In this document: in pieces, positions 37,533 to 40,918 of the stretch | Layout of the letters: every line of letters starts with the position of its first letter | How positions within the stretch are numbered: position 1 is the stretch's first letter | Source of the DNA: Acidobacteriota bacterium | Lineage (GTDB): Bacteria; Acidobacteriota; Terriglobia; Acidiferrales; UBA7541 | Direction: 5' to 3' | DNA: 64,000 nucleotides | Assembly: GCA_003223245.1 (NCBI GenBank) | Contig: QHYI01000130.1 | Coordinates: 14,986-78,985, forward strand | Program-made: the position numbers and the translations under genes | Notes under the pieces: generated by a model | The model's database searches: none | Seen by the model: the letters and a program-made list of their open reading frames with translations, nothing else | What the model was told of the DNA's origin: nothing

Positions 37533-37661
37533 GGCTCCATGCTGCAAACCTCCCAGCCCCAACACATCGTGCTTTGCAGGGGCGCAGCATGCTCCGTGCC
37601 GTCTCGGCACGTCTGATCGTCTGTTCCCTTCGTTCGCCGATGCTATAATGTGTGTTTCTTT

Positions 37662-39112
37662 ATGGCGAGATCCGCCTCAGAGACCGCCTCCCTCGCGCCG
37701 GAAATCCTGGCGAAATACGAGCCCGTCATCGGTCTCGAAGTCCACGTCCAACTCCTCACCAAAACCAAAATCTTTTGCGGCTGCTCCACGCGCTTTGGGG
37801 ATCCGCCGAACACTAACGTCTGCCCCGTGTGCCTCGGCCTTCCCGGCACGCTTCCCGTTCTGAACAAACGCGCGGTCGAGATGGCCATGCGCGCTTCTCT
37901 CGCCTTGAATTGCAAAGTGCACGAGCGTTCACGCTTCGCTCGAAAGAATTATTTCTATCCCGACTTGCCCAAGGGCTATCAAATCTCGCAGTATGAATTG
38001 CCTCTCGCCACCGGCGGCTGGCTTGATATCGAAGTCGGCGGCGCCACAAAGCGCATCGGCATCACCCGCCTCCATCTTGAAGAAGACGCCGCGAAAAACT
38101 TGCACGAAGGCTTTTCGCAATCCGCCAGCAAAGCTTACATTGATTACAACCGCTGCGGCACGCCACTGGCCGAAATCGTCTCCGAGCCGGACATCCGCTC
38201 TTCCGAAGAGGCGTACGCCTACCTCACCGCGCTTCGCCAGATCATGCTTTACACCGGCGTCAGCGACGTCAACATGGAGGAAGGCTCGCTCCGCTGCGAC
38301 GCCAACGTCAGCGTGCGTCCGCGCGGCTCCGACAAGTTCGGCACAAAAGTCGAAGTCAAAAATCTAAATTCTTTTCGCTTTCTGCAAAAGGCTCTCGAAT
38401 ACGAAATCGAGCGTCACATCGGGGTTCTCGAATCCGGCGGCCGCCTCACTCAGGAAACGCGACTCTGGCATCAAGCCGAAGGCCGCACCGTGGGCATGCG
38501 CTCGAAGGAAAAAGCCCACGACTACAGGTATTTCCCCGAACCCGATCTGCTCCCCGTTCATGTCAGCTCCGCCTGGCGTGAAGAAGTTCGTCGTTCCCTT
38601 CCCGAACTCCCCGAAGCCAAGCGCTCTCGCTTTGTCGCCTCCTACGGCATTACGCCTTACGATGCCGAAGTTCTCACCGCCAGCAAAGCGCTTGCCGATT
38701 ATTTCGAATCGGTGGTGAAGTCCGGCGCTCCTGGCAAAGCGGCCGCCAACTGGATGCAAACCGAGCTTCTTCGCCGCCTCAATGACTCCGGCAAAGAAAT
38801 TGATGCGAGCCCCGTCAGCGCGAAATCGCTCGCCGAACTCGTCACCCTTGTGGAATCCGAACAACCATGTTCGAGTCCGGCCGCTCCTCCGCCGATATTG
38901 TTGCCGCGGAAGGCCTCGGCGCTCAAGTCAGCGATTCCGCCATCGTCGAGGCCGCACGCAATGTGATCGCCAAAAATCCGGACAACGTCGCCAAGTTCAA
39001 ATCCGGCAACGAAGGCGTCTTCAAGTTCTTCGTCGGCCAAGTCATGCGCGCCACCCGCGGCCAAGCCAATCCTCAATCCGTCAACGACATCCTCCGCAAG
39101 CTCCTCTCCTGA
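37662..39112 (+). pseudogene. gatB: gatB: Asp/Glu-tRNA amidotransferase subunit B with a reading-frame break
   Basis: The first frame (from the ATG at 37662) has the complete GatB catalytic domain: [21 protein letters not shown] with CPVCLGLPG (zinc-type cysteines), [14 protein letters not shown] and the [12 protein letters not shown] segment. It runs to VTLVESE near 38864 and is then out of frame and ends at 38966. The correct C-terminal tail resumes in another frame at 38867 with [12 protein letters not shown] and ends normally at 39112 (QVMRATRGQANPQSVND). About ten residues between (the usual GTISGKIAK region) are missing, so a deletion of a length not divisible by three has occurred, or the assembly is wrong. 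The tail is needed for tRNA recognition, and the enzyme is normally essential where GlnRS or AsnRS is missing. A TATAAT sequence at about 37645 could be its -10 box. Confidence 0.8.
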
Positions 39113-39348
39113 CCTGCATGGTTGTAGCTCCGGCCTTCAGGCCTGAGGCACGTTTGGAGTGCCGCAGCCCTGCTGCCGCTGATGTTTTCTGTGCCCTCGG
39201 CGACCTCTCGGTTAAGAAAGACCTTTAGCCTCGCTCGAACGCATCCGATTCACCACGGTTTCCCGCTATCGCATTTTGAATTTCGTGTTTCGATTTTCGT
39301 CTTTTGCGCCGCTCGAACAACCTGTTAAACTCTCTTCCATTCGCTCCC
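39113..39348. other. Short intergenic region with REP-like fragment
   Basis: No gene is seen. At about 39155-39180 a degenerate copy (GGAGTGCCGCAGCCCTGCTG) of the perfect palindrome found at 42312-42340 can be recognised, and CCTTCAGG lies at the centre of another small dyad near 39133. Confidence 0.4.
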
Positions 39349-39810
39349 ATGCTCAAGCCCGGCGACAAAGCTCCTCGGTTCCGCGTCCCATCCGACGAAG
39401 ATAAACTCGTCGCCCTGAAAGATTTCAAAGGCCAACGCGTCCTCCTTTTTTTCTTCCCAAAAGCCAACACTTCCGGTTGAATCATCGAGGCGTCCGAGTT
39501 TCGCGACGCAAAGAAACAGTTCGACAAGCTCAAAGTCGCCATCCTCGCGATGAGCGCCGATTCCGTCAAAGCGCAAGCGATCTTCAAGGCCAAGTACAGA
39601 TTCAATTTTTCCCTGCTGAGCGACCCTGATCACAAAACCATCGAAGCTTACGGTGCTTGGCAGCAAAAGCGGTTCATGGGGCACAAATTCATGGGCATCG
39701 TGCGCAGTTCTTTCCTTATCGGCAAGAACGGCAAAATCGAGGCCGTCTGGCCCGCCGTCAAAGCCAAAGGCCACGCCGCCGAAGTCCTCGAATATCTCGA
39801 GAAGAGCTAG
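39349..39810 (+). CDS. PrxQ/Bcp-type peroxiredoxin, probable selenoprotein (UGA at codon 44)
   Basis: Read through one in-frame TGA (39478-39480, codon 44) the protein has 153 residues and is a complete PrxQ: GDKAPRF at the start, the active-site region PKANTSG-U-IIEASEF, LLSDPDHKTIEAYG, FMGIVRSSFLI with the conserved Arg, and VKAKGHAAEVLEYL at the end. The TGA falls exactly at the peroxidatic cysteine of the P-x3-T-x2-C motif. No other cysteine exists in the whole protein, and the resolving position five residues later is Ser49. Downstream of the TGA, GCGTC (39490-39494) pairs with GACGC (39505-39509), inner CG/CG, with apical loop AGTTT starting 16 bases after the TGA and G in its second place, which meets bacterial SECIS rules. 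The alternative is a simple nonsense mutation. SelA, SelB and tRNA-Sec are not in the window. Confidence 0.8.
39487..39512 (+). promoter_or_regulatory. Candidate bacterial SECIS hairpin
   Basis: The five-base-pair stem GCGTC/GACGC (39490-39494, 39505-39509) continues with CG/CG around a bulged C and closes the loop AGTTT at 39497-39501. The loop starts 16 bases after the TGA. This spacing and the G in the first two loop bases are what SelB-dependent elements need; the stem also falls in coding sequence, as in other bacterial selenoprotein genes. Confidence 0.55.
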
Positions 39811-40559
39811 CTGGCGCGTACTTTTCCCGGCTCAGGAAGCTTCTTCTTTGGCCACGGAGTCAGCATCGAAACACTCTTCTGGTAATCAAGGTATCGCTCT
39901 CCGTGGATGCTTACCAGATCGCGTTCTTCCAGCTGGATGGCCACCAGGATGTACGCTGTGGTCATGATCGCGAAGAAAAGGTGCGCCGTGGTCATCGCCG
40001 GGGTGCTCCAGAAAGCGATGAGGAAGCCAGCGTAAATCGGATGGCGCACGAATTTGTAAGGTCCCGGAGTTGCGAATCGCAGGCCGGTGAATTCCTTGCC
40101 GGTGAAGAAACACCAAACCTGTTTCAGGCCGAACAGCTCGGCGTGGTCAATCAGGAACGTGCCGATCAGCACCGTTAGCCAGCCCACCACGAACAGCAGG
40201 TGTAGCACTTGAATGCCGATCGGATTCTGCACCGTCCAGATGGCTCTAGGTAGGGGCTGCCAGTATCGGATCAACAGGAGCAGCGCAACGCTCGCGAAGA
40301 GCACGAAGGTGCTGCGCTCGGCGGGAGGGGGAATAATCCGCGTCCAGGCTCTCTTGAAGAACTGCCGGGCCATGATGCTGTGCTGCAACGCAAACAGAGC
40401 CAAGAGCCCCGCGTCAATCAGCAGCCGGTCGGTCCTGGGACGCAAAACACCCACGGGAGCAGCATCCATCGTATAGACAAACCAGATGGCGTAGAGAAAT
40501 GTCCCAAGAAAAATGACGTAACACAGCAGCCCATAAAGCAGGATCGCAAATCGCTTCAT
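39807..40559 (-). CDS. mddA: Methanethiol S-methyltransferase (MddA-like)
   Basis: I start it at the ATG at 40559 (250 residues); the frame extends to 40766 but the extra 69 residues lack any similarity to the family. The protein starts MKRFAILLYGLLCYVIFLGTF, has five or more membrane helices and carries the isoprenylcysteine-methyltransferase-like C-terminal motif: RHPIYAGFLIAFW and QLEERDLVSIHGERYLDY, where AdoMet binds. Enzymes of this type methylate methanethiol to dimethylsulfide. It converges with the peroxiredoxin gene, the two stops overlapping by 4 bp. The assignment rests on the overall pattern; related NnrU-like methyltransferases are the main alternative. Confidence 0.83.
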   Translation of the reverse strand: MKRFAILLYGLLCYVIFLGTFLYAIWFVYTMDAAPVGVLRPRTDRLLIDAGLLALFALQHSIMARQFFKRAWTRIIPPPAERSTFVLFASVALLLLIRYWQPLPRAIWTVQNPIGIQVLHLLFVVGWLTVLIGTFLIDHAELFGLKQVWCFFTGKEFTGLRFATPGPYKFVRHPIYAGFLIAFWSTPAMTTAHLFFAIMTTAYILVAIQLEERDLVSIHGERYLDYQKSVSMLTPWPKKKLPEPGKVRAS

Positions 40560-40918
40560 CTTTTGACTCCTCGGGATGGAACTGCAGGCAATTTGCGCCA
40601 GTGTATAGCACGCCCCGGCGCCCGATAGCAACCCTATTCGCTGACTCCGGTCGCTGACCCCTTTGTATGTCAAAACGATTGATCCCTTTCGGCTGGGATT
40701 CCTCCGTTTTTCAAAAACTTGAAAAACTTCTGTCGTCCGGCCCTCGCTCGCGCCAATCTGCGGCATTTCGCCCCGTCAGATCTGCTCGCAGTCACCCGGC
40801 TCTCCGGGCAGGTGTTTTTTTTGGAATCCCTGGCCTTTCGGCCCGTTTCACGTCCCCGATTTCCGCCTCACAATTGTTTGCAAGGCTCGGCGTGTCCTCC
40901 CGGGCCGATGGAGGGGCA

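Follow-up and report, generated by a model that had tools for sequence, protein, structure and literature searches.

The peroxiredoxin locus and its in-frame UGA codon

The DNA analysed here, a stretch of 64,000 nucleotides (the window), carries a gene for a peroxiredoxin of the PrxQ/BCP type whose reading frame contains a TGA at codon 44. Upstream of it, on the same strand, lies a putative gatB-like gene, so named from its sequence. The features that enter the argument are the following:

37650-39112, + strand: gatB-like gene, upstream; it adjoins the PrxQ locus in both Sec and Cys relatives
39349-39810, + strand: PrxQ/BCP-type peroxiredoxin gene, 153 amino acids with UGA read as Sec; stop codon TAG at 39808-39810
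39476-39481, + strand: putative lower SECIS stem, 5' strand, which contains the UGA; pairs with 39520-39525 and is partly present in the minimum free energy (MFE) fold
39478-39480, + strand: UGA (Sec) codon 44, the peroxidatic position, aligned with TGA, TGC or TGT in the rows of the order
39490-39509, + strand: apical hairpin of a putative bacterial SECIS, with loop AGTTT at 39497-39501 and a bulged base at 39504; poorly kept in Cys relatives
39493-39495, + strand: codon 49, TCC (Ser), the resolving-Cys position of 2-Cys PrxQ
39520-39525, + strand: putative lower SECIS stem, 3' strand, codons 58-59; pairs with 39476-39481

A first-pass annotation of this DNA had placed the TGA inside the P-x3-T-x2-C active-site motif of an otherwise intact PrxQ, and had described the full-length protein as free of cysteine with Ser at the resolving position. 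Both observations hold. In the frame 39349-39810 the TGA at 39478-39480 is codon 44, and the motif reads P37-KAN-T41-SG-U44 (P37-x3-T41-x2-U44), with UGA where relatives carry Cys. Read through the TGA, the protein has 153 residues and no Cys, and residue 49 is Ser. It matches the AhpC-TSA domain (Pfam PF00578, 4.5e-33), and among solved structures it comes closest to AhpC/TSA and bacterioferritin comigratory proteins (best 1.4e-25); nine of the ten top PDB matches bear the name of bacterioferritin comigratory protein or of a homologue of it, which places it in the PrxQ/BCP subfamily. The resolving Cys at +5 that marks an atypical 2-Cys PrxQ is absent from the window protein, Ser49 standing in its place. 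PrxQ proteins without a resolving Cys exist, and Cys-type PrxQ rows lacking Cys at +5 also occur among our sequences from the order and the phylum. An AlphaFold2 model, built on 42 rows with U entered as C, has a mean pLDDT of 96.9 and puts residue 44 close to the N-terminal end of helix 42-53; T41, position 44 and R119 are invariant in the 42 rows. A conventional reading of TGA as stop would leave 43 residues, and we regard it as near-certain that a selenoprotein gene lies here. The host is an acidobacterium, as had been supposed, the nearest named records being 'gp2' Acidobacteria MAGs and Candidatus Acidiferrum.

The neighbourhood was compared across 41 loci (L031-L071), which represent fewer than 41 genomes because some genes occur in both L031-L059 and L060-L071. 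The body of the gatB-like gene is found in 40 of the 41 and its tail in all of them, while the gene downstream in the window (39807-40766) is found in none. The window copy of the gatB-like gene has a 34-nt gap at 38861/38862 relative to three relatives, which shifts its frame; this reflects a fault of the assembly or a true deletion.

Conservation of the TGA and selection past it

Among 95 genomes of the order, 86 gave a PrxQ match. The closer matches were taken (E≤2.8e-32, plus the G082 and G052 pieces at E ~1e-28 to 1e-31) and weaker paralogue rows were left out, which yielded 85 rows; these are not all independent, since they come from 81 genomes. Codon 44 is TGA in 59 rows (Sec rows), TGC or TGT in 25 (Cys rows) and unreadable in one, L178 of G052, where the gene is in two pieces, the other of which has one TGA. 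Hence the comparison of homologues suggested by the first-pass annotation finds TGA or TGC/TGT in every readable row of the order (84/85). The TGA rows come from 57 genomes, with identity down to ~52% (46% if the doubtful G080 is included). Pairwise comparison of seven close genes (21 pairs) gives a dN/dS of 0.16 before the TGA and 0.11 after it; the sequence past the TGA is thus under purifying selection, which argues that the codon is no nonsense mutation.

In the wider phylum, 215 of 396 genomes were matched, and outside the order at least 10 rows other than the window's own carry one TGA among the matches listed. Five of these TGA rows were read; in each the TGA is codon 44, residue 49 being Ser in four of them and Cys in the fifth. 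Of the PrxQ loci read in the phylum, among the matches listed, 24/29 are Cys.

Freedom from Cys is a property of the window gene and of 28/30 Sec rows of its genus. Of the Sec rows belonging to other genera, 27/29 have Cys at residue 68, as do 17/25 Cys rows of the order. In the model residue 68 lies near the end of strand 63-69. Cys68 may act in those other genera as a helper or, conceivably, a stand-in resolving residue.

Two individual genomes deserve separate mention. In G075, a Cys PrxQ (L157:198-713) adjoins a Sec PrxQ (L157:777-1238) and is possibly a selenium-independent spare. In G080 (L172), a lone codon-44 TGA is found within a Cys clade, together with Ile49 and lacking the usual loop G; it may be a recent gain, a nonsense mutation or an error.

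Selenocysteine machinery of the host and its relatives

The first-pass annotation had named selA, selB, selD and tRNA-Sec as the genes to seek in the rest of the genome, and a lack of selA, selB and tRNA-Sec as grounds for refutation. All four are present in the host genome (6.31 Mb in 237 contigs, 95.8% complete): selA (563.8 bits) on the same contig as the window, selB (356.9 bits), selD (345.5 bits, with one internal TGA and Sec in the motif AGUAAK) and tRNA-Sec (64.4 bits, anticodon TCA). Among the genomes with a TGA PrxQ, 56/57 have selA above the cut-off or tRNA-Sec at E≤1e-9, the sole exception being G019, which is 85% complete and in 800 contigs. This limit for tRNA-Sec is stricter than the tool's own cut-off, which 79/95 genomes pass; it was chosen because weaker matches resembled tRNA-Ser and others (ARAGORN, own genome). 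Where the PrxQ is of the Cys type only, 19 of 23 genomes have selA or tRNA-Sec, and the other four all belong to genus g12.

The host genome also holds three further probable selenoproteins, namely a Prx-like protein with UxxC and one TGA (C162, L021), a TxxU-type peroxiredoxin with one TGA and a probable signal peptide (C132, L023), and SelD itself (C232, L028). Paired neighbouring tRNA-Sec matches occur in two relatives (G014, C465:6472-6825; G033, C2:1112064-1115807).

A conserved putative recoding signal downstream of the TGA

The hairpin proposed earlier is confirmed at 39490-39509: nine bases separate the TGA from the stem, and 16 separate it from the loop AGTTT. In the RNAfold prediction the outer A and U of this loop pair, so that the loop becomes GUU. 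The legend of Fig. 2 in PMC13188914 gives as rules for the bacterial SECIS an upper stem of 4-16 bp, a distance from UGA to loop of 16-37 nt and an MFE of ≤-7.5 kcal/mol. The window hairpin has 7-8 bp with one bulge, a distance of 16-17 nt and an energy of -11.3 kcal/mol (36 nt after the UGA), and its loop, whether taken as AGTTT or as GUU with an A-U closing pair, contains the G. Relative to that legend, it therefore fits in position, spacing, loop G, stem and energy.

Taken singly, the 53-nt fold is unremarkable when set against dinucleotide shuffles (z -0.86; 39 of 200 shuffles fold equally well). Against synonymous recoding, however, the 59 Sec genes have a mean z of -1.68, with 56 of them below -1, while the mean for the 25 Cys genes is -0.11, with 4 below -1. 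In the Sec genes the codons of the stem-loop are kept down to the wobble base (GAG in 58, TTT in 58 and GAC in 59 of the 59), whereas they are mixed in the 25 Cys genes. The bulged base varies (C 36, T 19, G 4), G being found in all four Sec genes with Thr49 and in no others. Among the seven close genes (21 pairs), pS is 0.057 in codons 48-54 as against 0.41 over codons 45-150. Cells of the upper stem are paired in 98.0% of cases for Sec and 59.6% for Cys; for the lower stem, formed by codons 43-45 with 58-59, the values are 94.2% (57 distinct rows) and 54.3% (23 rows), although one of the six lower-stem pairs is impossible in Cys rows because the base there is not A. The Cys pairing count covers 23 of the 25 rows, with L176 (another family) and L177 left out. 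Gly43 is encoded by GGT in 54/59 Sec genes versus 3/25 Cys genes, a preference for which the lower stem may account.

A search of 39300-39900 against Rfam returned no family up to E 1, and two-sided compensatory changes in the apical hairpin were found nowhere within the order. Covariation lends no support because the hairpin hardly varies; the case for a SECIS is therefore made by the frozen wobble sites, the stability relative to recoding and the poor keeping of the hairpin in Cys genes.

Proposed mechanism and alternative readings of the codon

With a probability of about 0.94, we propose that the gene encodes a genuine selenoprotein, a PrxQ with Sec at codon 44. In such a mechanism, SelB and tRNA-Sec would read UGA44 as selenocysteine, the recoding being directed by a SECIS hairpin immediately downstream, composed of the upper stem-loop (39490-39509) and the lower stem (39476-39481/39520-39525). 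Located at the start of helix 2, the selenolate would then attack H2O2 or organic peroxides. Given that no Cys is left in the protein, reduction of the resulting selenenic acid would fall to an outside thiol, either thioredoxin or a low-molecular thiol.

That the TGA is instead a nonsense mutation, or a sequencing or assembly error, in a Cys-type PrxQ is hardly credible. Local errors are possible in a draft assembly of 237 contigs, as the 34-nt gap in the adjoining gatB-like gene illustrates, and the lone TGA of G080 may itself be of this kind; but the same TGA stands in 59 rows from 57 genomes of the order, dN/dS past it is 0.11, and the core of the SECIS is kept at synonymous sites. On such sequence conservation, we consider this reading refuted for the window gene. 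The odds are equally minute for an altered code or near-cognate read-through by which UGA would be read as an ordinary amino acid. The open frame agrees with it and nothing further does, whereas the host possesses the full set of Sec genes, tRNA-Sec(UCA) included, Cys occupies the aligned position in 25/25 readable non-TGA rows of the order, and the neighbouring gatB-like gene terminates with TGA (39110-39112), so the codon still works as a stop in this host. Selenocysteine could also be inserted into a protein whose main role is other than peroxide removal, for instance redox sensing or the reduction of some other substrate. The missing resolving Cys would suit such a role, and the assignment of function draws on family and motif; yet the protein retains the PxxxTxxU motif and Arg119, with no variation at T41, position 44 or R119 among 42 rows, and the fold is confidently predicted, which makes this improbable, albeit less so than the two readings above.

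Alternation between selenocysteine and cysteine

Residue 49 differs between the two classes. In the 59 Sec rows it is Ser in 54, Thr in four and Ile in one (G080); in the 25 Cys rows it is Ile in 10, Cys in six, Asn in four, Val in four and Gly in one, and never Ser or Thr. One candidate explanation, that the SECIS stem acts as an absolute bar to Cys49 through the pairing of the middle base of codon 49 with the first base of the Asp53 codon, was ruled out: the Sec genes L084 and L199 have Cys49, and their predicted hairpins pair differently there.

A tree was built from 80 family rows and 16 outside rows, with residues 44-54 masked and the second copies L170, L175 and L177 left out. On this smaller tree the Sec/Cys label changes eight times within the family (seven without G080). 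Over seven independent pairs, Ser/Thr49 goes with Sec in six, against it in none and shows no difference in one (sign test, p 0.031, the pattern having been noticed before the test). Uniting all 56 Sec rows in one clade is rejected by the AU test (p 1.7e-8). The same test does not reject a tree in which the five rows of the window's genus with Cys44 and Cys49 branch off outside all others (p 0.057), and those five rows may therefore be old rather than reverted. A larger tree of 124 rows, to which 28 phylum rows were added (L185 was left out as the same protein as L089 over 140 residues), gives seven changes in the family and a weaker basal split (93/61). The rows that adjoin the order's clade are Cys in the larger tree (L183, L193 and L196; weak support, 83/54 and 90/69) and Sec in the smaller one with its 16 outside rows, so the state outside the clade depends on sampling. 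In both trees, the order's clade (100/99) consists of an all-Sec branch (18 rows) and a mixed branch, with Sec at many depths.

The clearest case for a Sec-to-Cys reversion is genus g12, whose five Cys rows are nested in Sec clades (99/91 and 98/88 in the smaller tree, 100/87 and 92/88 in the larger). Five of its six genomes (G087-G092) have no selA match, at completeness values of 71-72% for two of them and 89-97% for the others, and their best tRNA-Sec matches reach E 4e-8 to 7e-8. The sixth, G091, has kept selA and tRNA-Sec, yet its PrxQ is of the Cys type.

The rejection of a single Sec clade points to repeated Sec-to-Cys change, the direction coming from parsimony only, and on the same footing the pattern is read most simply as a single basal gain of Sec in the family, with several later returns to Cys. 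Put more fully, and tentatively, at odds a little short of even, a PrxQ with Sec and Ser49 would have arisen once, basally, in the order and reverted in place several times, each reversion freeing codon 49 from the demands of the SECIS and of 1-Sec chemistry so that it turned either into Cys, restoring a resolving residue (Cys44/Cys49), or into Ile/Val/Asn/Gly. If the patchwork came about through several Cys-to-Sec gains or through gene transfer, the Cys44/Cys49 rows of the genus could lie outside the rest, which AU p 0.057 does not reject; the Cys rows L183, L193 and L196 beside the order's clade in the larger tree, with its basal split of 93/61, and the prevalence of Cys at the phylum loci read, among the matches listed (24/29), also accord with such an origin. 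We nevertheless consider it rather unlikely, and less probable than repeated reversion: both trees divide the clade (100/99) into the all-Sec branch of 18 rows and the mixed branch, both place a Cys genus (5 rows) within Sec clades, and the Cys copies L056-L058 sit at the same gatB-like locus. The presence of the same gatB-like neighbour at Sec and Cys loci of the window's genus speaks for a change in place there. Should repeated reversion be correct, the order would constitute a series of natural experiments on the keeping or dropping of selenium in a single enzyme, with g12 caught in the course of losing the entire Sec machinery.

Comparison with known systems

Sec peroxiredoxins with TxxU in COG1225 have been on record since 2001-2005 (PMC1088965, PMC13188914), and selenoproteins in Acidobacteria have already been counted: Table 2 of PMC1794560 has four in three families, and a passage of PMC12013277 gives three for Occallatibacter riparius. 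The present results widen the range of Sec-PrxQ to take in an order of soil Acidobacteria. Table 1 of the 2006 survey (PMC1794560) has five Cys-to-Sec and zero Sec-to-Cys changes for peroxiredoxins; by parsimony only, the order seems to run in the direction opposite to that table. Relative to these tables of PMC1794560, the repeated Sec-to-Cys change and its link to residue 49 are new to us, and a literature search, thin on subscription journals, found no published account of the order's PrxQ, of the repeated change or of the link. With close Sec and Cys versions at the same locus in the window's genus and a residue 49 that covaries with them, the family offers a test of the benefit of selenium to a peroxiredoxin.

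Compared with the bacterial SECIS as set out in the Fig. 2 legend of PMC13188914, the window hairpin agrees in position, spacing, loop G, stem and energy; it differs in its one bulged base and has no Rfam match. Among Cys-type PrxQ/BCP proteins, the window PrxQ aligns with 5enu over residues 8-149 (1.4e-25) and with 3ixr over 22-150 (1.7e-24); those proteins carry Cys in place of Sec, and a further Cys at +5 is common (20/24 Cys phylum loci, among the matches listed). The nearest known system is the Sec peroxiredoxin (TxxU; COG1225/PF00578). Passages of PMC13188914 and PMC1088965 trace it to a 2001 description in Eubacterium acidaminophilum, give it as frequent in Sargasso Sea data and bear out the earlier statement that bacterial peroxiredoxins with Sec at the peroxidatic position are known. 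The window PrxQ belongs to the same family and shares with it, as far as those passages describe it, the PxxxTxxU motif and the peroxidatic position of Sec; its host, by contrast, is a soil acidobacterium, and its freedom from Cys, with Ser at +5, may set it apart from the described forms.
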